Shown: one piece after another, positions 31,292 to 59,586 of the stretch
Layout: every line of letters begins with the position of its first letter
How positions within the stretch are numbered: position 1 is the stretch's first letter
Source of the DNA: an uncultured Carboxylicivirga sp.
GTDB taxonomy: Bacteria; Bacteroidota; Bacteroidia; Bacteroidales; Marinilabiliaceae
NCBI RefSeq assembly: GCF_963668385.1
Contig: NZ_OY764327.1
Coordinates: 310,001-374,000, forward strand
Direction: 5' to 3'
DNA: 64,000 bases
Notes under the pieces: generated by a model
What the model saw: the letters and a program-made list of their open reading frames with translations, nothing else
Databases searched by the model: none
Told to the model about the DNA's origin: nothing
Program-made: the position numbers and the translations under genes

Positions 31292-31507
31292 CCCTCAGGC
31301 TGCTGAGCTTTTGGCTTCACCTATTTTCAATTCATTTCTTTTCTTGATAAAAGAAACGAAACAAAGAAAATCAAGGCTACATCTAGAATTTCATTATGAC
31401 TATTACCTTACTTTAAGTGCGGCCGAGTGATCTTCGAACAAGTTCTCAGCTTCTCGGTCTTTCTAAAAGTAAGTTCTTATTCATAATTCATTCTACCTGA
31501 TGCCATT
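31292..31507 (-). repeat. Structured intergenic repeat, copy 1
   Basis: Fills the gap between the amidase and glycosyltransferase genes. Stems on the plus strand: CTCAG/CTGAG (31294-31307); ATTTTC/GAAAAT (31323-31328, 31366-31371); TTTCTTTT/AAAAGAAA around CTTGAT (31335-31356); ATTATGA/TCATAAT (31393-31399, 31481-31487); CTTACTTT/AAAGTAAG (31407-31414, 31466-31473); CCGAG/CTCGG (31423-31427, 31453-31457). The CCGAG/CTCGG stem is CCGGG/CCCGG in the other three copies. Confidence 0.85.
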
Positions 31508-31519
31508 CCTTCATATAAG

Positions 31520-34456
31520 CTATTTTCCACTCCTCATGTAAAAAAGATCCAGTATTTCCTTCATCAAATTATCACGTTCCTGTTCTGAAATTATTGTCTC
31601 GAACGGAAAGCCTAAAACAACCGTTTTATACTCTCCCTCATACAACGTTCCTGCACTTGAATTATTCTCTTTATATCTGAATGCCGTTACCGCATTTTCT
31701 CCAACAGGCTCAATGGCATCAGGTGCTTCCACACTATAAAAATCAGGATGATAAGCTGCATTAAAACTAAGCTCTCCAGAAAAATAAGGCATTGCAAAAT
31801 TACTTGCATAAACATCCCCGCTTTTTACGGCATGATTGGTTCGCCATTTGAACTTGAGCACATCCATAGCAAACTGAGCCGCCAACGTATCCTTTGTAAG
31901 ATGAATATCAGATCCCACATAAGCACCACTTATAAAAACGTTCTGATTATTCTGGGTCAAGCTGCTCAGCTTTGCCATAAATTCAGGCGTATATATTTTA
32001 TAGCGAACCGTATTGTTTTTGTACGACACCGTTGTTTTTTCTTCTCCTAAAATGATATCAACCACTTTATAAGCTGAAGCATCATAGTCGCTTTGATTAA
32101 ATGCTTCATCACTCACCGAAACAAATGAATATCCGGCTTTCAGTATCGAATGACCATGCAGATAAACATTATCAAAGGTGTTTCCCTTGATGATCTTGCC
32201 TTCGTAGTCGGCATAGCTTGCTCCCCACCCGGGACTATCATCATCCAACCATGGCGATTGTCGATCGAAATCGTACTGAAAACCTGTAAAAGCAATATCG
32301 TATCTATCTGGCACACCCTGATCATCCCACCAGGCAATACCCGCAAAATCTCCTTCATCAATAAAAGCCGGAGCACTGACCCGATCAAAGGCATTTACAA
32401 CCAATACTTTTTCAGCATCCTCTGTGGCTATACCCATTGACAATATTTCGCTTGCGAAGCTTTCTCCACCTTCATTTATGGCCGACACTTTATAGCTGAT
32501 TATTTGTCCCGCATCAGGTTCCGGAAACAGAAATGAGGTTCCGTTCACAATCACTCCGTTATCAAAACCATTATCATTAATCCGTTGATACACTTTATAT
32601 TTTGTTGGTTTGGCTGATGGCTCCATAGGATCATCAACCGGCTGCCAGCTTAATTCATATCCGCTACTTGTTTCTTTTATTGCCAATTGATCAACAGGCA
32701 AAGGCTGAACCACATAACCCCGTCCTTCCTGATACGCCAAAAATTTAAGCATCCCTTTATAAACAGCCCGACAAACATCAAACCTGAAATTCGGACCCAA
32801 ACCATATCGCATATCGGCCACATTCTGATGCGACAGTAATTCCAACAACATTGTTGGCACATTAGGACGCCACGCTTCGGAATATTGCTTATCCCAAAGA
32901 CCTCGTCGAGTCCAATCCTGATTATATAAAACGCGAATATCTTCTACAATTTGTGATTGAATAATATCAGCCAAATCGCGACTCACCAACTTGGATTGAC
33001 CATTAGGAAATTTGCCTTCGTCACGCACCGTACTGAAAATTCCCAAAGTGCCAATAACAGAATCGTTAGGAGTTACCCCTGCATCACTGTGAAAAGCAAA
33101 AGCCAAATCAATGGGTAGATTCAAGCCCGATGCATTTTGATCACATAAGTAATTCACCCATTCACCACGGCTCATGTAATCATCCTTGTAATCATTTTTC
33201 TCATCATTCAAGTTAAATGCCAAAGTATCGGGCATACCGGCATACTGCATCCAGTATCGGGCAGCTTCCATATATCTGGGTTTACCGGAAGTCTTTGCTG
33301 CAACAGTTGATATTGCCTGACGAGCCACATTTCCCATACCACCTCCTAAACGAACAGCATCCAACGAAATAGTTCCTTCGCCTGAAACTTCAATAACGGC
33401 ATCTTCATCTGATTTAAAATGAAATGTGCCCAAATAAATCCAGGTTCCACCTCCCATTGTCTGGCTAACCGTATAGCTAGTTTTCCCTCCGCTATGATGA
33501 ATGGTATATTGGACTTTTTTCGATTGATCCTCTCCCTGTTGATAAGAGATATAAACTGCATAATCACCCGTTTCTGAAACCTGCGATCGATATTCAGCCA
33601 CTTTACCGTTGGCATTATCCACCAGTAAAGAAGTACCCATTTGAAAAGGATTATCACCTGCAAACAGGGTGTCTTTATATGCAAAACCGCTTTTACTAGA
33701 AGTATCTGTTCCTTCTTCTTGTTGAAATACAGATTGCCCTGTACAAAAATCATTATCGATAATCACTTCATTTGTTTGCAGGCATCGTTCGCGAGGCAAG
33801 AAAACCGTAGCCCCGGAATTTTCTAGCATAGGCAATAAATACGGCAACACATACGACATGGTATAAATATCTTCAACCGTTCCATAAAGGCGAGCCCGCT
33901 GCCACTCCCATCTATCCAGTTTTTGATCGAAATGATAACCATGACTATGCCAAAGAGCTATCAACTCATCTGATAAGCCTTCTGAATAATGTAACTGGTC
34001 TTCTCGTTTTATAAAGTTTTCTGATTGCTTCTTTTCTGCGAATCGATCTTTATCAATCTCCTGATTAGTTCGATAGATATTTGGTATCAATTCCGATAAT
34101 TCGTAGCCATTTGTATAAACAACAGTTGAATAATTCTTATGCTTCCTCTTTTGTAAATCTGATAAGCTATTGACAAATTTTTCAACATCATCGTTTCTCC
34201 ATGGAACATAAGATAAGGTGGTATTGTAATAGAAATGCACCTCCTTTGCAAGCTCATCAACCTGAATCGAATCCAATTTAATGGCTCCCAAGCCACCCCA
34301 TTCAGTCATTGGATTTTGCCAATTCTCCACTGACTTATTAAGTCGATGAAGCATTCTCTCGGATTTTTTATCCTGTGCATGAGACGTTGAAATTACTATC
34401 AACATCAAAAATAAAACAACCAGCTTCCTCCTTTTTATAAAACTCATGAATGCCAT
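31520..34456 (-). CDS. Exported N-acetylmuramoyl-L-alanine amidase-like protein with golvesin-type domain
   Basis: A 978-residue protein with a signal peptide (KLVVLFLMLIVISTSHAQ, cleavage near residue 28). Amidase_3-like motifs are spread through the sequence: a His-rich LWHSHGYHF (about 168), AFAFHSDAGVT (about 455, like the family's HxDA motif) and TMLLELLSHQN (about 552, with the C-terminal catalytic Glu). Between them is a beta-rich segment (about 240-380) resembling the golvesin C-terminal-like domain often annotated 'xanthan lyase'. A fibronectin type III-like module follows (about 615-700). It probably removes stem peptides from peptidoglycan outside the inner membrane, supplying the SpoIID-type enzyme and permease of the operon. 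Confidence 0.75.
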   Translation of the reverse strand: MAFMSFIKRRKLVVLFLMLIVISTSHAQDKKSERMLHRLNKSVENWQNPMTEWGGLGAIKLDSIQVDELAKEVHFYYNTTLSYVPWRNDDVEKFVNSLSDLQKRKHKNYSTVVYTNGYELSELIPNIYRTNQEIDKDRFAEKKQSENFIKREDQLHYSEGLSDELIALWHSHGYHFDQKLDRWEWQRARLYGTVEDIYTMSYVLPYLLPMLENSGATVFLPRERCLQTNEVIIDNDFCTGQSVFQQEEGTDTSSKSGFAYKDTLFAGDNPFQMGTSLLVDNANGKVAEYRSQVSETGDYAVYISYQQGEDQSKKVQYTIHHSGGKTSYTVSQTMGGGTWIYLGTFHFKSDEDAVIEVSGEGTISLDAVRLGGGMGNVARQAISTVAAKTSGKPRYMEAARYWMQYAGMPDTLAFNLNDEKNDYKDDYMSRGEWVNYLCDQNASGLNLPIDLAFAFHSDAGVTPNDSVIGTLGIFSTVRDEGKFPNGQSKLVSRDLADIIQSQIVEDIRVLYNQDWTRRGLWDKQYSEAWRPNVPTMLLELLSHQNVADMRYGLGPNFRFDVCRAVYKGMLKFLAYQEGRGYVVQPLPVDQLAIKETSSGYELSWQPVDDPMEPSAKPTKYKVYQRINDNGFDNGVIVNGTSFLFPEPDAGQIISYKVSAINEGGESFASEILSMGIATEDAEKVLVVNAFDRVSAPAFIDEGDFAGIAWWDDQGVPDRYDIAFTGFQYDFDRQSPWLDDDSPGWGASYADYEGKIIKGNTFDNVYLHGHSILKAGYSFVSVSDEAFNQSDYDASAYKVVDIILGEEKTTVSYKNNTVRYKIYTPEFMAKLSSLTQNNQNVFISGAYVGSDIHLTKDTLAAQFAMDVLKFKWRTNHAVKSGDVYASNFAMPYFSGELSFNAAYHPDFYSVEAPDAIEPVGENAVTAFRYKENNSSAGTLYEGEYKTVVLGFPFETIISEQERDNLMKEILDLFYMRSGK

Positions 34457-34473
34457 TAATTCTGTTCAATTAT

Positions 34474-34502
34474 CAAATTTAATTAACTATTGCGAGGAAC
34501 AA
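34474..34502 (-). promoter_or_regulatory. Promoter of the peptidoglycan operon (minus strand)
   Basis: On the minus strand, TTG (complement of 34500-34502), 18 bp, TAAATTTG (complement of 34474-34481), 17 bp before the amidase start. The -7 box is perfect; the spacing is one base short of the usual range. Confidence 0.5.
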
Positions 34503-34600
34503 ACACAAATTTTCGAACCTAGCACCAACTAACCCTAATTATTGCGCCTTCATCTAATCAAAACAACTTACTTTTACATCAATAAAACCAAAGCATCACA

Positions 34601-35440
34601 ATGATATTAATTGCAGACAGCGGCTCTACCAAAACGGAATGGAGACTTATTTCCAATGATCAATTAACCATTGAAACCTGTTTCACAAAGGGAATTAATC
34701 CTTTTTATCAAAGTACAGAAGATATTATTCTTAGCCTTAAGGAATCATCAACCTTGAAAGCTATCCATCCTGAACGCATCTATTTTTACGGTGCAGGATG
34801 TGCGAATACAGAGAAAAATCTTATCGTTGAAGATGCTTTAAAATCATTTTTTAGAGCTGAAAAAATTTTGGTTGATAGCGATCTTACCGGTGCAGCACGA
34901 TCGTTATGTCAGAATGATGAAGGGATTGCCTGCATTTTGGGTACCGGATCCAATTCTTGTCATTACGATGGAGAGAAGATTACATCAAACGTATCGCCAT
35001 TAGGTTTTATCATTGGAGATGAAGGAAGTGGTGCTGTACTAGGCAAAAAGTTATTAGGAGATATTTTGAAAAACCAACTTCCTAACGATTTGATTGATTT
35101 TTTTTTCAACACTTACCAAACAGATAGAGCTGAAATACTGGATCACATTTACAAAAAGCCATTTCCTAACAGATATCTGGCTCAATACACAAAGTTTTTG
35201 TCGGAAAATATTAAAAATGAAGAGCTACAAATTTTAGTAATCGATTCATTTAAAGAATTTATACAACGAAACCTTTTGCAATACAACAATATTGCTCAGC
35301 GTCCCATTCATTTTACCGGAAGCATTGCCTTTTATTTTAAAGAACAGTTGAAAGATGCTCTTTCAAGTTTTGATCTAAAACCTGGAACGATATGTCAATC
35401 CCCTATGGAAGGTTTGATTCGCTATCATCTAGAAAGATAA
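34601..35440 (+). CDS. BadF/BadG-type amino-sugar kinase (GlcNAc/MurNAc kinase-like)
   Basis: A 279-residue ASKHA-fold kinase. Phosphate-1 motif LIADSGSTKTEWRLI (2-16), the DSDLTGAARSL region (about 96-106), phosphate-2 CILGTGSNSCHYDG and GDEGSGAVLGKKLL are typical of the BadF/BadG/BcrA/BcrD-type N-acetylglucosamine kinases. In Tannerella a related enzyme, MurK, phosphorylates MurNAc to MurNAc-6-P. Only 3 bp separate it from murQ, whose substrate is MurNAc-6-P, so MurNAc kinase is the best call. It is divergent from the amidase operon. Confidence 0.87.
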   Translation: MILIADSGSTKTEWRLISNDQLTIETCFTKGINPFYQSTEDIILSLKESSTLKAIHPERIYFYGAGCANTEKNLIVEDALKSFFRAEKILVDSDLTGAARSLCQNDEGIACILGTGSNSCHYDGEKITSNVSPLGFIIGDEGSGAVLGKKLLGDILKNQLPNDLIDFFFNTYQTDRAEILDHIYKKPFPNRYLAQYTKFLSENIKNEELQILVIDSFKEFIQRNLLQYNNIAQRPIHFTGSIAFYFKEQLKDALSSFDLKPGTICQSPMEGLIRYHLER

Positions 35441-35443
35441 AGA

Positions 35444-36274
35444 ATGAAAAAAGAGGATAATCCCGTTAATATCACCGAATCTTCATCGCATTACAATCAT
35501 CTTGAAAAAATGTCGGTTGAAGAGTTATTAACAAATATAAATAATGAAGATGCAAGCGTTCATCTGGCTGTTCAGAAGGCGCTTCCTCAAATAATTGCTC
35601 TGACTGAACAAATTGTTGAACGAATGAGGAGAGGTGGTCGAGTATTTTACTTGGGAGCCGGCACCAGCGGACGTTTGGGCGTACTGGATGCATCTGAGCT
35701 TCCTCCTACTTTTGGAGTTCCTGACAATATGGTAATTGGACTGATTGCCGGTGGAGATACCGCCTTACGTAAAGCAGTTGAAGCAGCCGAAGATGATAGA
35801 GAAATGGCCTGGAAGGAACTTTGCGAATACAAGGTTGATGAGCTGGATACGGTAATTGGCATTGCTGCCTCCGGTACCACGCCTTATGTTATTGGCGGAC
35901 TTGAAGAGGCTCGCAAATATGGTTTATTAACAGGGTGCATCACCTGCAATCCGGATAGTAAAGTTGCAGAAGCGGCTGAATTCCCAATAGAGGCCGTTGT
36001 TGGACCAGAGTTTGTGACCGGAAGTACCCGAATGAAGGCAGGAACGGCTCAAAAAATGATTTTGAATATGATGACAACAACCATTATGATTCAATTGGGG
36101 CGAGTAAAAGGAAATAAAATGGTAAACATGCAACTCACCAACAATAAACTGGTTGATAGGGGAACCAAAATGATTATTGAAGAACTAGAGATTCCATACA
36201 AAGAAGCCGAAGCACTTCTTCTGAAACATGGATCGGTTAAAAAAGCCATTGATTTCTTCAAAGAAAAGAACTGA
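35444..36274 (+). CDS. murQ: N-acetylmuramic acid 6-phosphate etherase
   Basis: A 276-residue cytoplasmic enzyme that cleaves the lactyl ether of MurNAc-6-P, giving GlcNAc-6-P and D-lactate. SIS-domain motifs are present: FYLGAGTSGRLGVLDASELPPTFG, GLIAGGDTALRKAVEAAED and VIGIAASGTTPYVIGGLEEAR. These are close to the MurQ consensus. The signature GPEFVTGSTRMKAGTAQKMILNM is also complete. Slightly shorter than E. coli MurQ (298). Cotranscribed with the kinase gene and ends at a bidirectional terminator. Confidence 0.96.
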   Translation: MKKEDNPVNITESSSHYNHLEKMSVEELLTNINNEDASVHLAVQKALPQIIALTEQIVERMRRGGRVFYLGAGTSGRLGVLDASELPPTFGVPDNMVIGLIAGGDTALRKAVEAAEDDREMAWKELCEYKVDELDTVIGIAASGTTPYVIGGLEEARKYGLLTGCITCNPDSKVAEAAEFPIEAVVGPEFVTGSTRMKAGTAQKMILNMMTTTIMIQLGRVKGNKMVNMQLTNNKLVDRGTKMIIEELEIPYKEAEALLLKHGSVKKAIDFFKEKN

Positions 36275-36285
36275 TCAGATAACAC

Positions 36286-36325
36286 AAAAAAGCATTCTCA
36301 ATGCGTTTACCAAGAATGCTTTTTA
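36286..36325. terminator. Bidirectional terminator
   Basis: AAAAAGCATTCT pairs with AGAATGCTTTTT, with A and T tracts on opposite sides. It separates murQ from the convergent transaldolase gene. Confidence 0.9.
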
Positions 36326-36356
36326 GGTTTGAAGACAAATCTACGTTATTTAATAA

Positions 36357-37022
36357 TCAAAAATCAATATCATATAAACCTTCTGCGTCTTTTTCGAACC
36401 ACTCAACACTCATATCCGTCATTGGGTGACTGCGAAGACGTTCCAGAATTTCAAAATTAATGGTAGCAGCCTGGCTACCCATCATACTCACACGATGCAC
36501 CTGATCGACTGTTTTAAAACTGGCTGCCAATACCTTTGTATCCAAACCGAAACATTCGATATTTTCTACAATATTACCAACCACCTCAATACCGTGAGAC
36601 GATATATTATCCAAACGATTAACGTATGGTGCAACCCAATCGGCTCCTGCACGGGCTGCAACCAAAGCTTGTTGCTGAGTAAAAATAGCTGTAGCTGTTA
36701 CATTAATTCCAGCCTCTTTAATCATTGGCATAGCTCGGTATCCTTCGGCAGTTACCGGAATTTTAGCAAAATAATTATCACCCAAACTATATTTTGCTTT
36801 ATAAGCTTTAGCCTCACGAAGCATATCTTCAGCTTTGTTACTGATCATCTGAACATGCAACATCTTATCGCCAACTAACTCAATTAATTCGGGTAATATT
36901 ACCGACATTGGCTTTTTTGCCTGTGCAATAATGCTCGGATTAGTTGTAACTCCTTCGATTGGAAAATAATAAAACAACTGTTTTAGCTCGTCTATATCGG
37001 CTGTATCAGCTAAGTAAATCAT
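36357..37022 (-). CDS. Transaldolase, FSA/TalC (fructose-6-phosphate aldolase) type
   Basis: A 221-residue short transaldolase. MIYLADTADIDELKQLFYYFPIEGVTTNPSI is the family opening, and the Schiff-base lysine is K87 in NYFAKIPVTAEG. TATAIFTQQQALVAARAGADWVAPYVNRLDN follows. Short FSA-type enzymes can act as fructose-6-phosphate aldolase (to dihydroxyacetone and GAP), as transaldolase, or on related phosphorylated sugars. It is the last gene of the GntR-controlled operon, next to two sugar-phosphate dehydrogenase genes, so a related ketose phosphate is probably its substrate. Confidence 0.9.
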   Translation of the reverse strand: MIYLADTADIDELKQLFYYFPIEGVTTNPSIIAQAKKPMSVILPELIELVGDKMLHVQMISNKAEDMLREAKAYKAKYSLGDNYFAKIPVTAEGYRAMPMIKEAGINVTATAIFTQQQALVAARAGADWVAPYVNRLDNISSHGIEVVGNIVENIECFGLDTKVLAASFKTVDQVHRVSMMGSQAATINFEILERLRSHPMTDMSVEWFEKDAEGLYDIDF

Positions 37023-37031
37023 GACAAAATC

Positions 37032-38309: not shown

Positions 38310-38382
38310 ATTTCTAATTTGTTTGCTTTGATTTAATGAATTCCTTTTAGCTTGTTCATTCTGTGAAATTCATTATTCCTAT

Positions 38383-38426: not shown

Positions 38427-38446
38427 TAAGACTTAAAAAAACAACT

Positions 38447-39550: not shown

Positions 39551-39553
39551 TTC

Positions 39554-40771
39554 TTAATTTTTATTTGTTACAAACTGAATCAGAGAATCACCTAATTTAG
39601 TAAACTCGTCTCTTTTTTCAGCTTTAAAAACTCCTTTATTATCCAATACACCCACACCCTCTTTGGCAAATAAATACTGATGAGCAGCTAAAATACAAGC
39701 ACCTTCGTAATTGATTTCCATCAAATCCTTATCAAGCTTTGTTGCTCCTTTCGCCTCTACTTCAATGGGCTGCTTTCCCGGACTGTTATGCTCCGTTCCG
39801 AATGAAACAACAAATCCTTCTTTTTTAAGATATTGAGCATACTCTTTTAAAATAGCATGATTGTTTCGGGTTGGTATAAATTCAACCGACCACACACCTA
39901 AATCCTTTAATTCGGCAGATACTTTTTTCAACTCCCGCTCAAAATCGGTGTACCCCTTTACTGCATCAGCCAAAAACGGATATGTAGGAATTCCACCTGC
40001 TTCCAGAATAATGGAACGAATCTCGGCAACACTTAAGAACCCATTCGGATCTTCAGGTACATAAGCAGGCTTACCGGCTTTCAGTAAAGCTCCCCGGATT
40101 TCATTCTCAACACCGGCTTCATCTGTCAGACTGCACGACATTCCGTTGACATCTAATAATTCGTTATAAAAAGCCAACAAACGGTTGGCATCTTTGTAAT
40201 GCTTTTCAGCTAATTGGCGAATTGCACGAGCTAAATGACGTTCGCGAACCTGCCCCATTGCCAAATCCTTTTTTATTTGATTGTAATCCAATCGGAAACC
40301 AAATTGCTTCTTTGCAAAAAGCTCGTTTACCTTTTCGGTCATTTTGCGAACATAGTCGTTGGCATTGGTTACCAAATCGTCTATCTTCTGTTTCGTATCA
40401 GTCGATAAAGTCAGTGGATAAGCTAAACTCTTTCCGCTGAAATAGGTACGACCGGGATTACCCGGATCATTCACTTTCAAACCCTCTTTTTGATAGGCTT
40501 CATTCAAACCAATGAATTCAACATTAAAAAGAGGAAATAAATTTCTTTTAAAAGCACCATCATTCCAATCAGCATAAGCATCGAAGCTAAAGAAATCGTT
40601 GACTCCAACTACTTTTACACCTTCTTCGGCCGATTGATCTAAAGCTTCGTCAACCGATTGAAATGCACTAAATGAATGTGGTGTATGTAAGTGATTATTC
40701 ACCTTAAGCGGCTTTAAATCGCCGCTTGTGATTTGTGGTGAAAAATCTTTTAAATTATCTATAAAACTCAT
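39554..40771 (-). CDS. PHP-domain phosphoesterase-like protein
   Basis: A 405-residue protein with the PHP metal-site opening KVNNHLHTPHSFSAF (His27, His29), then VKVVGVNDFFSFDAY and late VVSFGTEHNSPGK, the places where PHP proteins supply further metal ligands. PHP proteins hydrolyse phosphoesters (histidinol phosphatase, TrpH-type). The long middle helical region (about 130-240) is not part of the minimal domain. In this operon it could dephosphorylate a sugar-phosphate intermediate, but this is inference from position only. It follows a large intergenic structured repeat. Confidence 0.75.
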   Translation of the reverse strand: MSFIDNLKDFSPQITSGDLKPLKVNNHLHTPHSFSAFQSVDEALDQSAEEGVKVVGVNDFFSFDAYADWNDGAFKRNLFPLFNVEFIGLNEAYQKEGLKVNDPGNPGRTYFSGKSLAYPLTLSTDTKQKIDDLVTNANDYVRKMTEKVNELFAKKQFGFRLDYNQIKKDLAMGQVRERHLARAIRQLAEKHYKDANRLLAFYNELLDVNGMSCSLTDEAGVENEIRGALLKAGKPAYVPEDPNGFLSVAEIRSIILEAGGIPTYPFLADAVKGYTDFERELKKVSAELKDLGVWSVEFIPTRNNHAILKEYAQYLKKEGFVVSFGTEHNSPGKQPIEVEAKGATKLDKDLMEINYEGACILAAHQYLFAKEGVGVLDNKGVFKAEKRDEFTKLGDSLIQFVTNKN

Positions 40772-40832
40772 AAAACCTGGATTTAGTTTTTGCTTTTTCT
40801 TTCTTTAGCCAGAATCATGTTGAATTTACTTT

Positions 40833-41045
40833 GCTCAAGCCCCAGGGCTTTTGGCTTCGCCGATTTTCAATTCATTTCTTTTCTTGATAAAAGAAACGAA
40901 ACAAAGAAAATCAAGGCTGCATTATGGATGATCTCATTCTATTTGCTGAACTTAAGTGCGGCCGGGTGATCTTCGAACAAGTTCTCAGCTTCCCGGTCTT
41001 ACTAAAGTTCATCGTCATATTATTTATCATCCCTAATGAGGCCAT
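40833..41045 (-). repeat. Structured intergenic repeat, copy 2
   Basis: Occupies most of the 307-bp gap between the E1 and PHP genes. Stems: AAGCCC/GGGCTT (40837-40850); GATTTTC/GAAAATC (40862-40868, 40906-40912); TTTCTTTT/AAAAGAAA (40875-40896); CATTA-t-GGATGAT with ATCATCC-c-TAATG (40920-40932, 41026-41038); TGAACTT/AAGTTCA (40947-40953, 41005-41011); CCGGG/CCCGG (40962-40966, 40992-40996). No other feature was seen in the gap. Confidence 0.88.
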
Positions 41046-41078
41046 TCCGGTACAATTAAGATCAAGCATATTCTATTC

Positions 41079-43547
41079 TTAGATTCCTAATTTCGATCTG
41101 CGGATATTTTCTGCATTGGTAAAGTTGTTGCTCACAGTATGTCCTTTTAAAGGCACAATTTTCTCGTGAATAGCATCTAAAATCCATTCTTTAGTCGGGA
41201 AGAAGTAATCTTCCAACTCATATGCAGGGGTAATCCAGTTGCGCGATCCAACAACCACAGGAGGTGCATCCAACTCGTCGAATGCCAGTTCGGTTAATCG
41301 TTGAGCCATATCTTTCAGGAACGAACCACGCTCGTTTGCATCACTAGTAAGAATAATTCGACCAGTCTTTTTCAAGCTTTCGATAACCGACTCATAGTTG
41401 AAAGGCACAATCGAACGGGCATCAATCACTTCAGCTGTCATGCCATACTTCTCTTCCAATTCTTTCGCCGCTTCCAAAGCACGATAAAGAGTTGCTCCAA
41501 TACTTAAAATGGTTACATCTTTACCTTCCTTCTTAACATCAGGTTCGCCAAACGGAATTTCGTAATATTCTTCTGGCACACCACCTTCGTGGAATTGCTC
41601 ACCTATATCATAAATTCGCTGACTCTCGAAGAACACAACCGGATCGGTTCCCTGAAGGGCAGCATTCATCAATCCTTTTGCATCATATGGAGTTACTGGG
41701 AAACAAACTTTTAAGCCAGGTACATGTGCCACCAATGAAGTCCAGTCTTGCGAGTGCTGAGCACCGTATTTCGAACCTACCGACACACGAATAACAACCG
41801 GCATTTTAATTACATTACCCGACATGGCCTGCCACTTAGGTAACTGGTTGAATACCTCATCACCACAACGACCTAAGAAATCGCAATACATGATTTCAGG
41901 AATAACGCGACCACCACACATGGCATAGCCTATGGCAGTACCAATAATAGAAGCCTCTGAAATAGGCGAGTTAAATAAGCGGTTGTAAGGAAGAGCCTCT
42001 GTTAATCCACGATACACAGCAAAAGCACCACCCCAGTCACGGTTTTCTTCACCGTAAGCAACCAAAGTTGGATCTTTATAGAAACGATCAACAATGGCTT
42101 CGAACAATCCATCGCGCAATTGATATTGTTTGATTTTTGAGAAGGCCTTACCATTGTCATCAAAGGCAAAACGCTCTTTTTTGGCAATTTGTTGAACGCG
42201 TGGATTTTCTTCCATTGGATGATTCACTTCAACCGGACGATCTTCCATCTTATCAACACTACCTTCTGAGAACATCATATCACCAATGATTTCAGGATGC
42301 TTCACCAAATCCATTCGAGGCGAAACCTCTTCGTCAATAGCCAGCTTCATGGCATATTTCATCAGCTCCTTAATATCTGCACTAATTGCTTCCAACTCTT
42401 TTACCGAAACCACACCTGCTTTTTCTAATTCTGCAGCATAGCTTGCAATACAATCCTGAGCTTCCCAGGCTTCAATCTCTTCTTTACTTCTGTATGATGA
42501 AGCATCAGATGGAGAGTGACCACTGTAACGATAAGTCAGCACATCCAACAAAACAGGTCCTTTCTTATCTTTAATCAGCTCCATTTTGCGTTTGTATGCG
42601 TCAATAACCGCCAATGGATTGTAACCATCTACACGCTCAGCATGCATGTTATCACGATTGACACCTGCACCGATACGAGCTGCTACATCATAACCCATGG
42701 TTTCGCCACAAGTCTGACCACCCATACCGTACTGGTTATTCATTATATTGAAGATGATTGGCAATCCACCTTTATAAGCGCCTTCCCACAATTGTTCAAA
42801 CTGATCCATGGTAGCAAAAGATAATCCTTCCCAAACAGGACCACAAGCCATAGAAGCATCACCAATATTGGCAACCACAATACCATCTTTCTGATTTACT
42901 TTTTTAAAGAGAGCTGCACCAACTGCAATATCACCTGATCCACCCACAATGGCGTTGTTCGGATAAACTCCAAACGGAGTGAAGAAAGCATGCATCGAAC
43001 CTCCCAAACCTTTGTTAAAACCGGTTTCGCGGGCGAAGATCTCAGCCAGTGTTCCATAAACAAGGAAACGACGGGCCAATGATTTCAAATCGCCTTTATG
43101 ATTTTCTGAAACAATTTTCAAGATGGTTCCGTCGAAGAAATTCTTCATCACCTCGGTTAAGGCTTCATCATCCATTTTGTGGATAGCCGACATTCCTTTA
43201 GCAAGAATTTCACCATGCGAACGGTGCGAACCAAAGATAAAATCTTCAACTCCTAAATTATAAGCCATACCAACTGCAGCTGACTCCTGTCCGATTGACA
43301 AGTGAGCAGGCCCCGGATGATTATACTCTATTCCTTCGTATTCACCTTTAATTTTAATAAGATTCAACATGGTTTCGAACTCTCGGATCAAAGCCATATC
43401 GTGATATATATCTATAAACTGCTCTTTTGAGAAGTTCACTTTTTCTTCTTCAATTGATTTGTCATACTGATTAACAGGAATATCTTGAATTTTAACAACT
43501 CCTGCTTTTCTAACTTTTACGGGATCTATAAATTGTGACTTAGGCAT
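41079..43547 (-). CDS. 2-oxo acid dehydrogenase E1, fused alpha and beta subunits
   Basis: An 822-residue thiamine-diphosphate enzyme. The alpha half (about 1-430) has GPAHLSIGQESAAVG, FGSHRSHGEILAKG and the ThDP motif region GDASMACGP...NNQYGMGG (the usual GDG is GDA). The beta half (about 475-822) has GEENRDWGGAFAVYRGL, FNSPISEASIIGTAIGYAMCGGRVIPEI and KVCFPVTPYDAKGLM. Such fused E1s are common in Bacteroidota and act on branched-chain 2-oxo acids, pyruvate or acetoin; sequence alone does not decide which. It forms an operon with dedicated E2 and E3 genes. Confidence 0.9.
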   Translation of the reverse strand: MPKSQFIDPVKVRKAGVVKIQDIPVNQYDKSIEEEKVNFSKEQFIDIYHDMALIREFETMLNLIKIKGEYEGIEYNHPGPAHLSIGQESAAVGMAYNLGVEDFIFGSHRSHGEILAKGMSAIHKMDDEALTEVMKNFFDGTILKIVSENHKGDLKSLARRFLVYGTLAEIFARETGFNKGLGGSMHAFFTPFGVYPNNAIVGGSGDIAVGAALFKKVNQKDGIVVANIGDASMACGPVWEGLSFATMDQFEQLWEGAYKGGLPIIFNIMNNQYGMGGQTCGETMGYDVAARIGAGVNRDNMHAERVDGYNPLAVIDAYKRKMELIKDKKGPVLLDVLTYRYSGHSPSDASSYRSKEEIEAWEAQDCIASYAAELEKAGVVSVKELEAISADIKELMKYAMKLAIDEEVSPRMDLVKHPEIIGDMMFSEGSVDKMEDRPVEVNHPMEENPRVQQIAKKERFAFDDNGKAFSKIKQYQLRDGLFEAIVDRFYKDPTLVAYGEENRDWGGAFAVYRGLTEALPYNRLFNSPISEASIIGTAIGYAMCGGRVIPEIMYCDFLGRCGDEVFNQLPKWQAMSGNVIKMPVVIRVSVGSKYGAQHSQDWTSLVAHVPGLKVCFPVTPYDAKGLMNAALQGTDPVVFFESQRIYDIGEQFHEGGVPEEYYEIPFGEPDVKKEGKDVTILSIGATLYRALEAAKELEEKYGMTAEVIDARSIVPFNYESVIESLKKTGRIILTSDANERGSFLKDMAQRLTELAFDELDAPPVVVGSRNWITPAYELEDYFFPTKEWILDAIHEKIVPLKGHTVSNNFTNAENIRRSKLGI

Positions 43548-43577
43548 TTTTCTATATTTAAGAGATTATTGTTCTGA

Positions 43578-49121: not shown

Positions 49122-49132
49122 ATAATTAGGTC

Positions 49133-52815: not shown

Positions 52816-52909
52816 AGATTCTTTCCGTTTAGATTAATAGAATATTGTTTTTTTCATAAATACTTGATTGGTATTTATCTGAGATAGGGTTAATTTCAGA
52901 TGATAAAAT

Positions 52910-53920
52910 TTACATAGGCTCACTTTTTTTTACAATAGTTAAATTCCTGTTGGTAAGATTATATTCTATAGGCGTTGTCATTTTTATAATATCTAACACC
53001 TGCCATATAGTTTCTTCATTTTTAAATTTGCCAGTATATCTTAATTCATTCAATTCTTGATCTTTCAGCTCAATACTAACATCATACCATCTTTCTAAGC
53101 GCAAAACCAACTCGTGAAATGAAATATTATCAAACAAAAAAACGTTGCTTCTCCAGGCCATTACCTGATCTGGATTGGACTTTTTTACGCAAAATTGTTT
53201 TGACGCCTTATCATAAGCTACTCTTTGCCCGGGCTTTAATACAACTACTTCTTTTCTTTTTCCTTCTTTTTCGATTTCAATCGCAACAGAGCCTTTCTTA
53301 AGAGTTGTTTCTGTTCTGCCAAAATCAGAATAAGCCATCACATTAAATTCAGTACCTAACACTTTTGTCTCATAATCTTCTGTCTGAACATAAAATGGTA
53401 CATCCTTATTCTTGCTTACTTCAAAAAAAGCTTCACCTTCTAAAATAACCCTTCGCTCCTTTCTTCCAAATCGAATTGGATATCTCAATTTACTTTCAGA
53501 GTTTAGCCAAATATGAGTTCCATCGGGCAATATAACTTGAGACTTCTCTCCCTTTGGTACAATCATTTCACACCACTGAGTTCCAGTATCAGCATTAAAA
53601 CTATTAAAATAGAAGTATTGCCCCACTCCCAACAAAACAATTACAACAGCTGCAAGTGATGCAAACTTGATCCAAGGCTTGATAATTTTTCGCATTGACT
53701 TTTCTGTTGTATGCAAATACTGAGCTTTAAATTTTTTCCAATAAGCGTCAGTAGTTACATCTCGTTTCTTTTCAAACAGAAACTCGTTGTCGTAATTATT
53801 AAAATACTTTCCAAAAGATTTATCTGTCTTAACTTTTTCAAACAACACCTCTTCTTCTTTCCTAGAAATGGTACCACTATAAAAGCTCCTAACTAAAATC
53901 TTTAGCTGTTTGTCTTCCAT
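52910..53920 (-). CDS. FecR-family anti-sigma factor
   Basis: A 336-residue inner-membrane regulator. The cytoplasmic N-terminal part (1-80) would bind the sigma factor. One helix follows (FASLAAVVIVLLGVGQYFYF, about 87-106), then the FecR periplasmic domain (MIVPKGEKSQVILPDGTHIWLNSESKLRYPIRFGRKERRVILEGEAFFEV) and a DUF4974 C-terminal domain (FDNISFHELVLRLERWYDVSIEL). DUF4974 is thought to contact the STN domain of the partner SusC. It lies between the sigma and susC genes, the usual order in Bacteroidota. Confidence 0.95.
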   Translation of the reverse strand: MEDKQLKILVRSFYSGTISRKEEEVLFEKVKTDKSFGKYFNNYDNEFLFEKKRDVTTDAYWKKFKAQYLHTTEKSMRKIIKPWIKFASLAAVVIVLLGVGQYFYFNSFNADTGTQWCEMIVPKGEKSQVILPDGTHIWLNSESKLRYPIRFGRKERRVILEGEAFFEVSKNKDVPFYVQTEDYETKVLGTEFNVMAYSDFGRTETTLKKGSVAIEIEKEGKRKEVVVLKPGQRVAYDKASKQFCVKKSNPDQVMAWRSNVFLFDNISFHELVLRLERWYDVSIELKDQELNELRYTGKFKNEETIWQVLDIIKMTTPIEYNLTNRNLTIVKKSEPM

Positions 53921-53996
53921 TGTAATTTAAATGATATAAATAGTACAGGGATTGGTATTGAAAACCCGCATGGATTTTCATTTTTTTGTGTTTTTT

Positions 53997-54611
53997 TTAA
54001 AAAAACATCAAAATAAATAGGGTATAAAGACGAATATCTTTATTCTTCATTACATCTCTCAAGGTTTTTAGAGCCCTTGATATGTGTTTTTCGACAGTTT
54101 TTATATTGAGCCCCATTTGCTCGGCAACTTCTTGGTTTTTTAATTCTTTAATCCGACTTAAAACAAAAGCTTGCCTAACGGTAGGTGGTAAAGTTTTGAG
54201 AATTCGATGAACTTCATCCATCATTTCATTACAAGCCTCTTCATACTCTTGTTCATCTAAAAAATTAAACATATACAAGCCCTGTGAAGCAGACTCATGC
54301 CTAAAGGCATCAATATACTTATTTACTACTTTATTATGATCGAGATGATTTAGGCAGATATTTCTGACGGCACGAAATAAAAATGACTTTAGATTACCTT
54401 TATCTTTAAGTAAATATCGCTTCTCCCATACTGAAGCAAACGCCTCTTGAACCAGATCTTCAGCAACCTCCTGATCTCCAACCATACCTTTAGCATAAAC
54501 GAGTAAGCGAGGAAAATAGGCTTTAAATATTATTCCAAACGCATTCTCATCCCCCCCCCTCACCTTTCGAATAAGGGTATCATCAGAGATATCTGATAAA
54601 AAACTATTCAT
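53997..54611 (-). CDS. ECF sigma factor (FecI-like) with a G9 tract near the start
   Basis: A 204-residue ECF sigma factor. Region 2 is DENAFGIIFKAYFPRLLVYAKGMVGDQEVAEDLVQEAFASVWEK, and region 4 is LPPTVRQAFVLSRIKELKNQEVAEQMGLNIKTVEKHISRALKTLR. The short hydrophobic tail (RLYTLFILMFF) is unusual. Codons 17-20 contain nine consecutive G on the coding strand (54559 to 54551), encoding part of VRGGDE; loss or gain of one G would truncate the protein. The sigma/FecR/SusC/SusD order indicates cell-surface-signalled control of the transporter genes. Confidence 0.93.
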   Translation of the reverse strand: MNSFLSDISDDTLIRKVRGGDENAFGIIFKAYFPRLLVYAKGMVGDQEVAEDLVQEAFASVWEKRYLLKDKGNLKSFLFRAVRNICLNHLDHNKVVNKYIDAFRHESASQGLYMFNFLDEQEYEEACNEMMDEVHRILKTLPPTVRQAFVLSRIKELKNQEVAEQMGLNIKTVEKHISRALKTLRDVMKNKDIRLYTLFILMFF

Positions 54612-54985
54612 ATACGAGTTAAAAATCGCTAAGATTTAGTCATAGATTCTCAGCGAAAATAAGAAAATTGCATTGGAACAAAAAGATTAAAACTTAATTA
54701 ATGCATGTAACGATAAATCATCAGCATTTACATTTAATAATTATCAATTAACAATTCAATAAAACTAAGAGGTTTGACAGATAAGATCAACCATATTCCC
54801 CATTACGATGCAAATCTGTTTTCAAACACGAATTTGCTCATGAGACCGTTATGCTTAAATCCGAATCAACTCAATATTAAACAACATACTAATTTAAAAG
54901 TACTTACAATCTTACTTTTACTCTATAATTCATGATTAACCACTAATCATACACCAAGTAAGAGACAAACTAAACAACATTACCT
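54612..54985. other. AT-rich intergenic spacer
   Basis: This separates the sigma-factor gene from the end of the rhamnose operon. It must hold the sigma promoter, but I find no convincing TTG/TAnnTTTG pair; the best is TATTTTCG with a TTG 17 bp upstream. No coding sequence or repeat is apparent. Confidence 0.5.
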
Positions 54986-55021
54986 AATAAAAAATCCCCG
55001 CAACCCTTTGGCTGCGGGGAT
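54986..55021 (-). terminator. Rho-independent terminator of the rhamnose operon
   Basis: ATCCCCGCA pairs with TGCGGGGAT; on the minus strand a T-run follows (complement of 54988-54994). It lies about 85 bp after the last rhamnose-operon gene. Confidence 0.88.
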
Positions 55022-55105
55022 ACAAATCTATGCAAGTTATACCGAGTTAATTTTTTGAGTTACTACCCTACAATTTCATCGGCATGTTTTAAATCTAAAA
55101 TAAAC

Positions 55106-56404
55106 CTACGATAAGAATTTCTTTCTTAAATCTTCTACCTGCTCATCGTTGATGGGTACTAAATCACCCATTGGAGCAGCCATTACTAATGATTTAGCAC
55201 TAAATTCAGCAACTTCAAGGCGGTCGAATGTTTGCAGAAGCTTATCTCCTGTTACTATAAACGAATCATTTGCCACTAGTACGGCAGGAACATTTTCGCT
55301 TAGCAACTTTGGAATGGTATCATCTCCCTGGAAATGCACCCCAAAAGGTAAACAAGGCACATCTTGTAAGAAAATCCAACTTTCTGGTATAGTACGCACA
55401 TCAAACTTAACTCCGGTTGTTCCATAAGCCATCAAGTTTGGTGGCTGGGTTAAAATGATTGAATTGACATGTGGATTTTCCTGGTAAATCTTTTGATGCA
55501 AGAAAGTTGAACGACTAGGTGTTTTACCTGGCTCTGCTTTACCTCCTTTAATTTGCACAATATCTTCTGGCGAAATATCCCAACGAGCCACATCTGGTGG
55601 TGTAATTAAGAAATCATTATTCTTCCAACGCACCGATACAGTTCCGTATGTACTTATCATCAAACCTTGGTCACAAGCACGACGAACAATATCGCAAATA
55701 TGCTGTCTTATCTCTTTTTCCTCTGGTGGATATGTTACATCAGTATTGCGAGGCACATTATGAGGCACCTGCTTTTCGAACTCATTAATCTGCTCATCAC
55801 TCAAAAACTTAGGCTCTCCAATAGCTTTAGCATTGATAATGGTTCGACAGCAAAATTCCAAGGTCTCAAAACGAGCATATGCATCCAGCATATCACTACC
55901 ACCTAATACCGTACCATGATTCTCCATGATAACAGCCATGCTTTCGCCTTTCTTGAATTCAGCTGCAATCAAATCCCCCAACTCATCACTTCCTGGCAAA
56001 CCATAAGGAGCATAACCAATAGGTCCACAAATATTTTTTGCCTGTGGAATAATATTGGTATTCGGAATTTGACGTACAATACTAAAAGAAACCAATGCTG
56101 GCGGATGTGCATGAATAACGGCTTTAATTTCCGGACGACAATCATAAATCGCCTTATGAAATGGAAATTCCGACGAAGGTTTATGAGGCCCTACAATGGT
56201 TCCATCACGCTTCACGCAGATAATATCCTTCTCTGTAAGCGTACCTTTATCAATTGCCGATGGAGTAACCCAAATATCTCCATTCTCATCGCAGATGGAA
56301 ATATTCCCACCTGAAGTAGTCGTCATCCCACTTTTGTAAATACGACTGATAATCTTTACAATCTGCACCTTGGGGTGCATCAACTTAGTGTCTATTTGTT
56401 TCAT
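55106..56404 (-). CDS. Tandem class II aldolase/adducin protein, second domain degenerate
   Basis: A 432-residue protein with two class II aldolase domains. The first (about 8-205) keeps the zinc site: the SSEFPFHKAIY glutamate, HAHPP and ENHG. The second (about 230-425) has the same fold pattern but LTQPP in place of HAHPP, NDSF in place of NHG, and no acidic residue at the SSE position, so it cannot bind zinc in the normal way. Class II aldolases cleave L-fuculose- or L-rhamnulose-1-phosphate or act on related sugar acids. It is the last gene of the rhamnose operon, next to a sugar kinase and a second aldolase. Confidence 0.85.
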   Translation of the reverse strand: MKQIDTKLMHPKVQIVKIISRIYKSGMTTTSGGNISICDENGDIWVTPSAIDKGTLTEKDIICVKRDGTIVGPHKPSSEFPFHKAIYDCRPEIKAVIHAHPPALVSFSIVRQIPNTNIIPQAKNICGPIGYAPYGLPGSDELGDLIAAEFKKGESMAVIMENHGTVLGGSDMLDAYARFETLEFCCRTIINAKAIGEPKFLSDEQINEFEKQVPHNVPRNTDVTYPPEEKEIRQHICDIVRRACDQGLMISTYGTVSVRWKNNDFLITPPDVARWDISPEDIVQIKGGKAEPGKTPSRSTFLHQKIYQENPHVNSIILTQPPNLMAYGTTGVKFDVRTIPESWIFLQDVPCLPFGVHFQGDDTIPKLLSENVPAVLVANDSFIVTGDKLLQTFDRLEVAEFSAKSLVMAAPMGDLVPINDEQVEDLRKKFLS

Positions 56405-56517
56405 TATCCTTAAATCAAAAAATCCAAAATTTAGTTTGTTAGTTTTTAGACAGTAGGCAGTAGCTCACTTCAAAAAACTAATTATTTAATCATGTAAGTT
56501 AGGAGTATTACCCCTTT

Positions 56518-57927
56518 TTATCCAAATGCTTTCCAATATTTTAAACCTAAATCAACCGATGGCTTTTCTTTCAAGTCCAGTTGATCGTATACCAACAGTG
56601 CAGCTCCTAATGCACTAGCGTTATCTACCTCCGATGTATAAACGTTACATTGCGGAAAGAAATTTGCCATCAATCGAATAAACATCTCATTTCGGGCAAA
56701 TCCTCCGGATATATATATCGTTTTAACATCATCACTCATGACCAAATCCAACGATTCGGCATTTAGCAATGTTATATCATACATTAAACGATGATAGGCC
56801 TCATCAAACGATGAAAATTGAGATAAATCAATCGAAACATCAATATAATCTGCCCACATCTCATCCTTAAAGAACATTCTTTCCTTACCTTTTGAAAGAT
56901 ATTGATTCATCAATGCCTCATCAGCTTTTACTTTTTTGTATTGATTACTTTCAACCTTAAAGAAGTTGGTCAATCGCTCGGTATTAACATCATGAATATG
57001 CCCCATAAATAAACGCGAAGATTTCACCGGTTTTTGCTCGCTACTGATGTAACACAAACAATCGCGTTTCAACTGATCGGCAGTCAGCGGACTATAATTG
57101 TATGGATTCATATTGATACACCACGTTCCGGTAGATACCAGCACAAACTTCTCGTCGCTTCCTTTAAAATAAGGCACCAGACTAGATGAACTGTCATGAA
57201 CGCCAATGCCCGTTTTGATATCAACGCCATCCAGCTTACTATCAAAACAAAGCTGGTTTGAAACAGGATCAGGGAGCTTTACTCCAGCGTCAGTCAACCA
57301 TTGATGATACTTACTATCATCAAAATTCCACATAAAAGTGTGACAACCAATAGAAGTACTTTCCGAAGTAACTTTACCCGTTAGCAAGTACGACAGATAC
57401 TGTGGAAAATGAAGTATATCATTCACCTTTGCAAATAACTCAGGCTGTTCTTTTTGCAACCACAATATTTGAATGCCCGAATTTAACATCACACCCAAAG
57501 CCGGACTGGCTGTTTGGCGACAAAATTCCGCTTCGCCACCATACTTTTCATACAATGCCTGATGAATCGATTCATCAATCGGCTTCAGATAATTATAAAT
57601 AGGCGTCAAACGTTTTCCTGCCTCATCCAAGAAAGCCAGACTAGCTCCATAGGTTGAGAAATTAACCGCCTTTACATCGTAATCTTTTTCATCAACCAAT
57701 TGTTTGAGGGTTGATTTCATCCAATCTTCAATCAGATCAATGTCATCGCATTCAAATCCATCCTCATCAACAATGGTTGGCATTTTCTGCTCTTTCTGAA
57801 AAACCATCTGCAGCTTTTCGTCAAAGAGCAATATTTTTTTATTTGTCTTACCTATATCAAAAACGGCAATAACAGGTATACTCATTCCTTTTTTATTTAA
57901 TGAATCTTCGTTGTAATCTTGAGACAT
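56518..57927 (-). CDS. FGGY-family sugar kinase, probable L-rhamnulokinase
   Basis: A 469-residue FGGY kinase. The start of the conserved fold is IPVIAVFDIGKTNKKILLFD, the phosphate-1 loop, with AVNFSTYGASLAFLDEAG and the sugar/catalytic region GIGVHDSSSSLVPYF (Asp in VHDSS). ATP motifs VLVSTGTWCINMNP and IYISGGFARNEMFI follow. Context (rhamnose isomerase and aldolase) makes L-rhamnulose the likely substrate. The first 14 codons are atypical; the second Met (57885), directly after an AAAAAAGGA tract, is a plausible true start. Confidence 0.85.
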   Translation of the reverse strand: MSQDYNEDSLNKKGMSIPVIAVFDIGKTNKKILLFDEKLQMVFQKEQKMPTIVDEDGFECDDIDLIEDWMKSTLKQLVDEKDYDVKAVNFSTYGASLAFLDEAGKRLTPIYNYLKPIDESIHQALYEKYGGEAEFCRQTASPALGVMLNSGIQILWLQKEQPELFAKVNDILHFPQYLSYLLTGKVTSESTSIGCHTFMWNFDDSKYHQWLTDAGVKLPDPVSNQLCFDSKLDGVDIKTGIGVHDSSSSLVPYFKGSDEKFVLVSTGTWCINMNPYNYSPLTADQLKRDCLCYISSEQKPVKSSRLFMGHIHDVNTERLTNFFKVESNQYKKVKADEALMNQYLSKGKERMFFKDEMWADYIDVSIDLSQFSSFDEAYHRLMYDITLLNAESLDLVMSDDVKTIYISGGFARNEMFIRLMANFFPQCNVYTSEVDNASALGAALLVYDQLDLKEKPSVDLGLKYWKAFG

Positions 57928-57944
57928 CCTCTCTCCTGCTTTTC

Positions 57945-58162
57945 GCTGCTCAAGCCGCGGAAGCTTTTGGCTTCGCCGATTTTCAATTCATTTCTTGTCT
58001 TGATACAAGAAACGAAACAAAGAAAATCAAGGCTGAATTGGCAATGACTCTTGTTTCTTTATTGAACCTAAGTGCGGCCGGGTGATTTTCGAGCAAAGCT
58101 CTCAACTTCCCGGTCTTACTAATGTTCAACTTCAAAACATTCCTCATTTCCAATTAGGCCAA
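57945..58162 (-). repeat. Structured intergenic repeat, copy 3
   Basis: Lies between the kinase and aldolase genes. Stems: AAGC/GCTT (57952-57966); GATTTTC/GAAAATC (57978-57984, 58022-58028); TTTCTTGT/ACAAGAAA (57991-58012); AATTGG-c-AATGA with TCATT-t-CCAATT (58036-58047, 58144-58155); TTGAAC/GTTCAA (58062-58067, 58124-58129); CCGGG/CCCGG (58078-58082, 58109-58113); inner GAGC/GCTC (58091-58101), which is GAAC/GTTC in other copies. Confidence 0.88.
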
Positions 58163-58188
58163 TCTGTACAACTTTACCCAATAATATT

Positions 58189-59292
58189 TTATTTTTTAGC
58201 CATCTTTCGACGGTAATTTTCCACTTCCCAATTATCGATAAACGCAATTTGCTCTGCTGTCATCGATTTTGGGCCTCCAAAACCGGCAGCATAAAAACCA
58301 ATCTTCAACATATCGGTAAAAACCTCCAAAACCGTAGCAACTGATTTCTCGCTTTCCTCTGCTATCACAATCCCTTTGCCTTTAATAGCAATAACCTTGG
58401 GAGTATATCCTTTTTGAGCAATAAATTCCTTTAACACATCAGCATTTTCTTCTGATTGTAAAAACGGATAGTAAGCTTTGGCATATACAATATTATCGGG
58501 CGTATAAGCTGCGGCCACCTTTTGAAACATCTGCTCATCATTCACAAAGTATTGTATCAAATCGCTGCTAAAGAACTTTACTATCATCTGACTGGCAGGA
58601 TCAACAACAGATTTAATAGCATTCAAATCAAAATCCATCACTTCTAATGCATTGGAAAAAGGAAGTTCTTCTTCAATTTGAGCTAATAACACTTCGTTTA
58701 CATTATCGTATATTGCATTTACTTCATCAACATTATTTGCTGCTACAAAAATCCCATGATTCTCAAGAAAAATTACCTTTGGCGATTCTCCTTTTTCTGC
58801 TTTATAATCGTTAATGCGATTATATACTTTTTTGAAAAGCACATAACCAGGATCGATATATTCAATAAATAATGCATCGGGAAACAACTCTGCACATTTT
58901 TCTTTGGCATTAACTGAACACATCAAAGCATTTACCAAGGTTGGATGCGTATGAACAACGTATGCATAATCGATTACTTCATGCATTGATGTTTCCACAC
59001 TTGGACGCTTATCAACCGGGAATAATATGGCTGCATGCAAATCGTTTTTCACCTCTTCTTCTCGCTTTGAACTGTCGGTGCTATACGATTTTTCAGCTAT
59101 GGTTTTGAGTTTACTTCGTGAAAGACACACAAAACCATCTTCTTCGATTACAGCCAGTGACGTTCCACTAGCTTTGATCCAAAGTTTTTCTTCGTCTTTG
59201 TAAGAGGTATTACCACCTCCGGCAATCACATAAAGGGGATTTTTTCCGTATTGCTGGGATATTTCAATTAAATCATTCAGACTTGGATTCAT
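58189..59292 (-). CDS. Class II aldolase, probable rhamnulose-1-phosphate aldolase
   Basis: A 367-residue protein corresponding to the aldolase half of RhaE-like bifunctional enzymes, without the dehydrogenase half. The zinc-site residues are present: VETSMHEVIDYA (glutamate), VVHTHPTLVNALMC (H-x-H) and FLENHGIFVA. The GGGNTSYKDEEKLWIKASGTSL block binds the substrate phosphate. It would split L-rhamnulose-1-P into dihydroxyacetone phosphate and L-lactaldehyde. No lactaldehyde reductase or dehydrogenase is in the window. Confidence 0.85.
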   Translation of the reverse strand: MNPSLNDLIEISQQYGKNPLYVIAGGGNTSYKDEEKLWIKASGTSLAVIEEDGFVCLSRSKLKTIAEKSYSTDSSKREEEVKNDLHAAILFPVDKRPSVETSMHEVIDYAYVVHTHPTLVNALMCSVNAKEKCAELFPDALFIEYIDPGYVLFKKVYNRINDYKAEKGESPKVIFLENHGIFVAANNVDEVNAIYDNVNEVLLAQIEEELPFSNALEVMDFDLNAIKSVVDPASQMIVKFFSSDLIQYFVNDEQMFQKVAAAYTPDNIVYAKAYYPFLQSEENADVLKEFIAQKGYTPKVIAIKGKGIVIAEESEKSVATVLEVFTDMLKIGFYAAGFGGPKSMTAEQIAFIDNWEVENYRRKMAKK

Positions 59293-59349
59293 AATAACTG
59301 ATTTTGAATGATTATTTATTACACCCAGATAATTTTCTTTTCATTACTT

Positions 59350-59586
59350 CGCTCTAGCCGCGAGGCTTTTCATTTGTTCATCCATTGTTTATTTTCCAAC
59401 AGAATTCACGATTTTCAATTCTTGTCTTGATACAAGAAACGAAACAAAGAAAATCAAGGCTACATTAAAGATGCTTGATGCTTATTTGAAGAGCTTAAGT
59501 GCGGCCGGGTGATCTTCGAACAAGTTCTCAGCTTCCCGGTCTTTCTAAAACTCTTCCTCATCGCTTCAAACATCTTTAATGAGGCC
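59350..59586 (-). repeat. Structured intergenic repeat, copy 4
   Basis: Covers most of the 340-bp gap between rhaI and the aldolase gene. Stems: AGCC-gcga-GGCT (59356-59367); GATTTTC/GAAAATC (59410-59416, 59449-59455); TTCTTGT/ACAAGAA (59419-59438); CATTAAAGATG/CATCTTTAATG (59463-59473, 59571-59581); GAAGAG/CTCTTC (59488-59493, 59551-59556); CCGGG/CCCGG (59505-59509, 59535-59539). About 35 nt of unrelated sequence replace the GGCTTCGCC block near 59370-59408. Confidence 0.88.

Follow-up and report, generated by a model that had tools for sequence, protein, structure and literature searches.

A covarying, RNA-like pseudoknot module in putative miniature transposons of Carboxylicivirga and other Bacteroidota

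A stretch of 64,000 nucleotides from an uncultured Carboxylicivirga sp. (NCBI RefSeq assembly GCF_963668385.1, contig NZ_OY764327.1, positions 310,001 to 374,000 of the forward strand; here called the window, with coordinates counted from its first letter) contains four copies of an intergenic element, for which a sequence-only reading had proposed arms that change their sequence and keep their pairing. All four copies, the quoted cores and the arm pairs were found in place; the proposed starts and the extent of copy 4 were kept, while the ends of copies 1 to 3 are better set at 31504, 41043 and 58160. Each copy is a module that, on the plus strand, runs from a small hairpin through a hairpin with the loop CTTGAT, an A-rich linker and the motif ATCAAG into a long rod. 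The features below are assigned to the minus strand, which is the strand read as RNA. Copy 1 (31292-31504), with small 3' hairpin, pseudoknot hairpin and rod, lies between a glycosyltransferase gene (29801-31264) and a gene with a Golvesin_C domain (31520-34456), both on the minus strand, and begins 15 nt after the stop codon of the latter. Its pseudoknot occupies 31331-31375 (arms 31331-31342/31349-31360, loop CTTGAT 31343-31348, partner ATCAAG 31370-31375) and its rod 31375-31504 (outer stem 31375-31389/31490-31504, next stem and conserved core 31393-31487). Copy 2 (40833-41043) follows a dehydrogenase E1/transketolase-like gene (41079-43547) at 35 nt from the stop codon and precedes an open reading frame (ORF; 39554-40771). 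Its pseudoknot lies at 40871-40915 (arms 40871-40882/40889-40900, loop CTTGAT 40883-40888, partner ATCAAG 40910-40915) and its rod at 40915-41043 (outer stem 40915-40932/41026-41043, next stem and core 40947-41011).

The co-directional placement that had been proposed is supported for the other two copies, which occupy both gaps of a row of rhamnose genes encoding the L-rhamnose isomerase RhaA (59633-60898), a class II aldolase-like protein (aldolase_II, 58189-59292) and an FGGY kinase (56518-57927). Copy 4 (59350-59586) separates RhaA from the aldolase; its pseudoknot is found at 59414-59458 (arms 59414-59425/59432-59443, loop CTTGAT 59426-59431, partner ATCAAG 59453-59458) and its rod at 59458-59586 (outer stem 59458-59473/59571-59586, next stem and core 59488-59556). 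Copy 3 (57945-58160) separates the aldolase from the kinase, with the pseudoknot at 57987-58031 (arms 57987-57998/58005-58016, loop CTTGAT 57999-58004, partner ATCAAG 58026-58031) and the rod at 58031-58160 (outer stem 58031-58047/58144-58160, next stem and core 58062-58129). Orthologous copies of copies 2, 3 and 4 are present in C. linearis; 45 extra bases inside the pseudoknot side of copy 4 (59374-59418) are missing from its orthologue. The plus strand of all four copies is antisense to both neighbouring genes, and if these gene rows are operons, all four would be transcribed from the minus strand. Predicted folding was strong on both strands (z from -3.8 to -6.1).

To place these copies among their relatives, the 6.27-Mb single-contig genome of the window was searched for exact AAGTGCGGCCG, which occurs 24 times (reversed control 0). 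A covariance model was built on 22 of the 24 copies, omitting two with a missing or disrupted left part (L013, L014). Such a model search of the genome and its relatives had been suggested by the sequence-only reading. In the window's genome, where 150 of 3650 first-look candidates were scored, it gave 35 matches at E<=0.001. Sixty genomes from the genus, family and order were searched, and 24 of them, the window's own included, contained a match. Among the 13 other genomes of the genus, 11 held matches, up to 44 each, and two held none. The suspicion that homologues exist in further Bacteroidota was borne out by model-confirmed matches in Labilibacter, Saccharicrinis, Ancylomarina, Labilibaculum, Marinifilum and others among the named-genome matches listed. 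That scan listed 80 of at least 115 stretches. Of the 80, 26 belonged by title to other phyla and were omitted as likely chance matches; the remaining 54 and 15 other loci were put to the model and yielded 71 matches, corresponding to 65 distinct rows of a wider alignment. A probe for the commonest form of the pseudoknot only matched one of 99 Bacteroidota genomes, the window's own, and none of the 98 others. The pseudoknot hairpin occurs together with another self-complementary rod on Persicobacter plasmids. It is also present at eight places of the Ilyobacter polytropus plasmid pILYOP01 (L333; Fusobacteriota), where it stands in two orientations within 500 bp (1495-1545 and about 1890-1950). 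In the window's genome itself, three divergent module copies lie within about 5 kb (L026, L027; G000:C1:5685500-5691000), each inside a longer shared repeat. Phage records and viral contigs searched for the module gave no match, and a phage or virus origin was rejected on these grounds. The proposed comparison with Rfam was also run. At the gathering score, the window gave one tRNA only and eight further loci gave nothing; at E<=10, nine matches were obtained for ten loci, all under the gathering score and none accepted as real. Rfam has no family that fits the module, and a printed description of these elements was not found in the literature, which was searched mostly as listings and abstract openings.

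Analysis of the alignments verified that the arms change in sequence and retain their pairing far beyond chance. In the 22-row alignment with a hand-drawn structure, 31 of 58 pairs showed changes on both sides, amounting to 119 double-change cells compared with 33.7 in shuffled alignments (0/500 shuffles as high). The 65 distinct rows, whose alignment was fitted to the covariance model, had double changes in 40 of 52 pairs and 503 such cells versus 142.4 (again 0/500), and the score of 0.372 fell to at most 0.087 when partners were slid by one to three columns. A core with conserved unpaired bases is kept among copies and across genera. The rod is closed by GGCT/AGGCC, holds AAGTGCGGCCGGG..CCCGGTCTTACTAAA and has a variable tip. 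The loop of the small hairpin (AAGCC..GGCTT) can pair with bases just upstream, as CCGC/GCGG in the window's genome and GTCC/GGAC elsewhere (noted by eye, uncounted). The CTTGAT-loop hairpin described by the sequence-only reading is present but incomplete on its own, being one half of a pseudoknot in which the loop pairs with the downstream ATCAAG. Loop and partner covary (CTTGAT/ATCAAG, CTTGAC/GTCAAG, CTTGAA/TTCAAG), and five of the six pseudoknot pairs carry double changes in the 22 rows. Six nucleotides match in 46 of the 65 rows and at least five in 50, compared with 1.2% (exactly six) and 4.5% (exactly five) for shuffled loops. On the minus strand, the linker forms the pyrimidine-rich loop 1 of an H-type pseudoknot beside an A-rich stem strand. 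The A-run can be interrupted by G, and stem and linker agree in this respect in all 56 rows that could be classified out of 65, which is compatible with a major-groove triplex. A palindrome of about 40 nt (CTGAAAC..AAGAATACTCAATTCTT..GTTCCGAT) was observed inside the pseudoknot hairpin at seven loci (L105, L107, L297, L299, L302, L308 and L276), where it replaces part of an arm, in both orientations and in elements with different ends.

The ends of related elements show what kind of DNA carries the module. Two very similar copies in C. linearis (L105 and L107) end in ATGTATCGTCGTTATTGTACCAG and CTGGTATAATAAAGACTAAGCAT, with one different base in the first end of L107; these 23-bp ends match at 18 of 23 positions (by eye) and are flanked by repeats of 10/10 bp in L107 and 9/10 bp in L105. 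An empty-site query with four copies gave matches on both sides for two sites. At the L105 site, between two seeming convergent terminators, the window's genome has no insertion. The L097 site, which holds a module in C. linearis, is occupied by a different structured sequence in the window's genome and so is not a clean empty site. That sequence (L133; G000:C1:5336676-5336770) is closed by ATTAGTTTGTTA/TAACAAACTAAT. In addition to these terminal inverted repeats (TIR1), the module is carried by two further end types unlike them and each other in sequence. TIR2 ends are CAATRTTGTCCTAA; 24 rows have a second end, and 11 of them (10 distinct elements) show exact 9-bp repeats (by eye). TIR3 ends are GGYTCTRTATGATTT..GTGGGTA, with exact 8-bp repeats in five of nine both-ended elements (by eye). 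The first rod was found with all three end types and a second rod, unlike it in sequence, with TIR2 and TIR3; further rods occur in other families and Persicobacter plasmids (by eye). The copies without a gene of their own, miniature inverted-repeat transposable elements (MITEs), hold no transposase. One TIR3-bounded 1.7-kb element in genome G003 combines the module with a DDE_Tnp_1 transposase frame. This element may have arisen by recombination, because matching target repeats are missing from its flanks and a piece of another copy adjoins it. A search of 36 genomes gave no other full-length match; one genome had fragments and another a weak match. ISL3, considered as a TIR3 partner from its GGxTCT ends and 8-bp repeats, is not supported by the sole transposase found, which matches DDE_Tnp_1. 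A 157-bp element with ends of the L105/L107 kind (L147; G001:C98:14907-15063), flanked by bases repeated at 9/10 positions, lacks the module (by eye) and has another interior, which is strongly folded. Within the window, terminal repeat remnants adjoin copy 2 on the plus strand, a weak left one at 40790-40812 (7/23 mismatches to the TIR1 consensus) and a right one at 41047-41069 (4/23). The suggestion of DNA elements mobilised in trans was right in kind, given inverted ends, target repeats and an empty site in relatives. Mobile-element identity has good support in the young relatives and, for the window copies, through homology.

Wobble pairs and gene orientation allowed us to ask which strand folds. 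With three near-fixed pairs excluded from the test, A.C on the plus strand (equal to G.U on the minus strand) filled 107 cells and G.U on the plus strand 25; mutation alone should give equal numbers, and the cells are not independent of each other. In the window's genome, neighbours were evaluated for 30 of its 35 matches; the plus strand was antisense to both neighbours in 22, sense to both in four and otherwise placed in four (p=0.0005). In the other genomes, with C. linearis left out, the 57 cases comprised 30 antisense, 11 sense and 16 other or undefined ones (p=0.004). Elements with the second rod had the better minus-strand fold by z in 10 of 13 cases. Wobble and orientation bias suggest that the folding RNA is the strand transcribed along with the genes.

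Orthologous copies in C. linearis were used to follow individual changes. Twenty regions, covering 21 of its 31 matches, were fetched and 12 orthologous pairs were compared; L041, matched on one side, was omitted. In the pair L043/L106, one rod-tip arm has become exactly complementary to the opposite arm. In L047/L095, a single step inverted the hairpin loop and broke the pseudoknot in the window's genome. These changes are signatures of template switching at the DNA level. The outer stem of L046/L096 differs at many paired positions simultaneously and may have been converted by another copy. Divergence in the orthologous pairs amounted to 100/2661 in the module, 114/1423 in short intergenic flanks and 1383/10465 at third codon positions. 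Covariation alone is no proof of selection. The sequence-only reading had attributed the arms to selection on folding, which the strand bias of wobble pairs and orientation favours, although template switching is another source, and our overall interpretation combines selection for RNA folding with template switching as one mutational source.

An RNA role of the module appears likely from these comparisons of sequence. From the mobility of the young relatives, the covariation, the pseudoknot pairing and the orientation bias, we infer that the window copies would be old insertions of MITEs with a conserved structured module that acts as RNA in the host transcript, a reading held at about even confidence. 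On the co-transcribed strand, the module starts with GGCC, would fold into the long rod closed by GGCC/GGCT and continues through the pseudoknot to the small hairpin. In the H-type pseudoknot CUUGAU/AUCAAG, the pyrimidine-rich loop could sit in the groove of the A-rich stem. Most likely, the module would be a compact, nuclease-resistant intercistronic or 3'-untranslated domain of the host transcript, with the proposed effect of rendering insertions harmless or stabilising the upstream message. Such a benefit at the RNA level would explain why MITEs with unlike ends retain the module.

Several observations weigh against this reading. The three near-fixed pairs do not follow the wobble trend, with two G.U and one A.C on the plus strand, and the z scores of the four window copies favour neither strand. 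The orientation counts include related rows, and three of the 30 matches form one local cluster (L054-L056) with ORFs more than 350 nt away. Fewer than five nucleotides match between loop and partner in 15 of the 65 rows, the pseudoknot is lost in L047 and core pairs are lost in L024 and L037, and the agreement of stem and linker could stem from the ancestry of two clades. Without L043, L046 and L052 (three of the 12 pairs, comprising one arm homogenisation, one likely conversion and one very diverged pair), divergence is 18/1988 in the module versus 10/876 in the flanks. The module is conserved compared with third codon positions and hardly more than intergenic flanks, and a claim of higher conservation for inserted copies than for the surrounding DNA fails against those flanks. 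Both TIR1 ends were found at <=7/23 mismatches in only two of 30 copies of the window's genome (shuffled controls: left 0/30, right 1/30). As so few ends are kept there, the mobility of its copies rests on homology.

A bolder form of this reading is possible, if doubtful. The module would be a transposon-independent pseudoknot-triplex RNA domain, a kind of passport captured by several transposon families with unlike ends and with exchangeable rods, which would make insertion into operons harmless or useful. It would represent a bacterial counterpart of eukaryotic triple-helix stability elements that has spread in Bacteroidota and reached a Fusobacteriota plasmid.

It is unlikely that the paired unrelated arms arose mainly from template switching at quasi-palindromes in ordinary MITEs whose structure has no RNA role. 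The homogenised arm of L043/L106 and the inverted loop of L047/L095 are of the kind expected from such a process, as is a module hardly above intergenic flanks in conservation, and template switching is reported to create and maintain RNA hairpins (PMC8794818). It should, however, produce neither the wobble asymmetry (107 vs 25) nor the orientation bias (22:4; 30:11) nor the crossed complementarity of the pseudoknot, and conserved unpaired core bases persist among copies and across genera. We regard it as quite improbable that the structure matters as single-stranded DNA or plus-strand RNA, for example for transposase recognition, strand choice or as a separately expressed small RNA. The two near-fixed G.U pairs on the plus strand and the transposase-frame element of G003 that also holds the module would suit such a role, but the variable pairs and the folding of second-rod elements favour the minus strand, and the TIR1 element L147 exists without the module, which seemingly is unnecessary for mobility. 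A REP/RAYT-like system, in which hairpins are moved by a Y1 (HUH) transposase, is highly improbable, in spite of hairpins in many intergenic copies and of four Y1 matches in the genome, of which three look RAYT-like. The four Y1 loci hold only single short motifs with no model match nearby, and Y1 enzymes are not known to produce inverted ends or 8-10-bp target repeats of this kind. The RAYT/REP link was rejected as none of the four Y1 genes adjoins the module. One RAYT-like gene lies within an array of repeated stem-loops (L131, 690-2330; CTTCCCTTCGTTTCCTAACGAAGGGAA, GCTCCTCGATAGGAATCGAGGAGC), which is a likely REP system of the window's genome.

If the module does act as RNA, bacterial selfish DNA would carry a structured RNA domain, one that different transposons keep, recombine and re-use. 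About thirty sites in one genome contain it. The arms also provide a natural case for separating selection on folding from mutation by template switching, as one can observe strand-specific wobble pairs alongside orthologous copies and hairpin-conversion events.

The elements share properties with several known systems. Intergenic hairpins are common to them and to REP/RAYT systems, from which they differ in that no module stands beside the Y1 transposase genes. Structured RNAs linked to transposons and present in many copies are known from IS200/IS605-type elements (omega/re RNAs, HEARO and others). The module resembles these in being multi-copy, transposon-linked and structured; it differs by the lack of an Rfam match, by inverted ends with target repeats and by MITEs in which a nuclease gene was not seen. 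Like the bacterial MITEs ERIC, Correia and QMITE2, the elements are short and intergenic with inverted ends and target repeats, and stably folding transcripts are reported for those families; in a review (PMC10969869), Correia transcripts are described as cut by RNase III and ERIC as altering transcript levels. Unlike in these families, the interior here also covaries in detail, contains a pseudoknot and is common to MITEs with unlike ends. A transposon-borne fold with a possible RNA-protecting triplex is shared with the ENE/triple-helix RNA stability elements of eukaryotic transposons (PMC12501189). The module differs in being bacterial and an H-type pseudoknot, its triplex is a candidate only, and it shows no poly(A) clamp. 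The elements appear to be MITEs with a conserved, strongly covarying RNA-like interior that is common to several end types.

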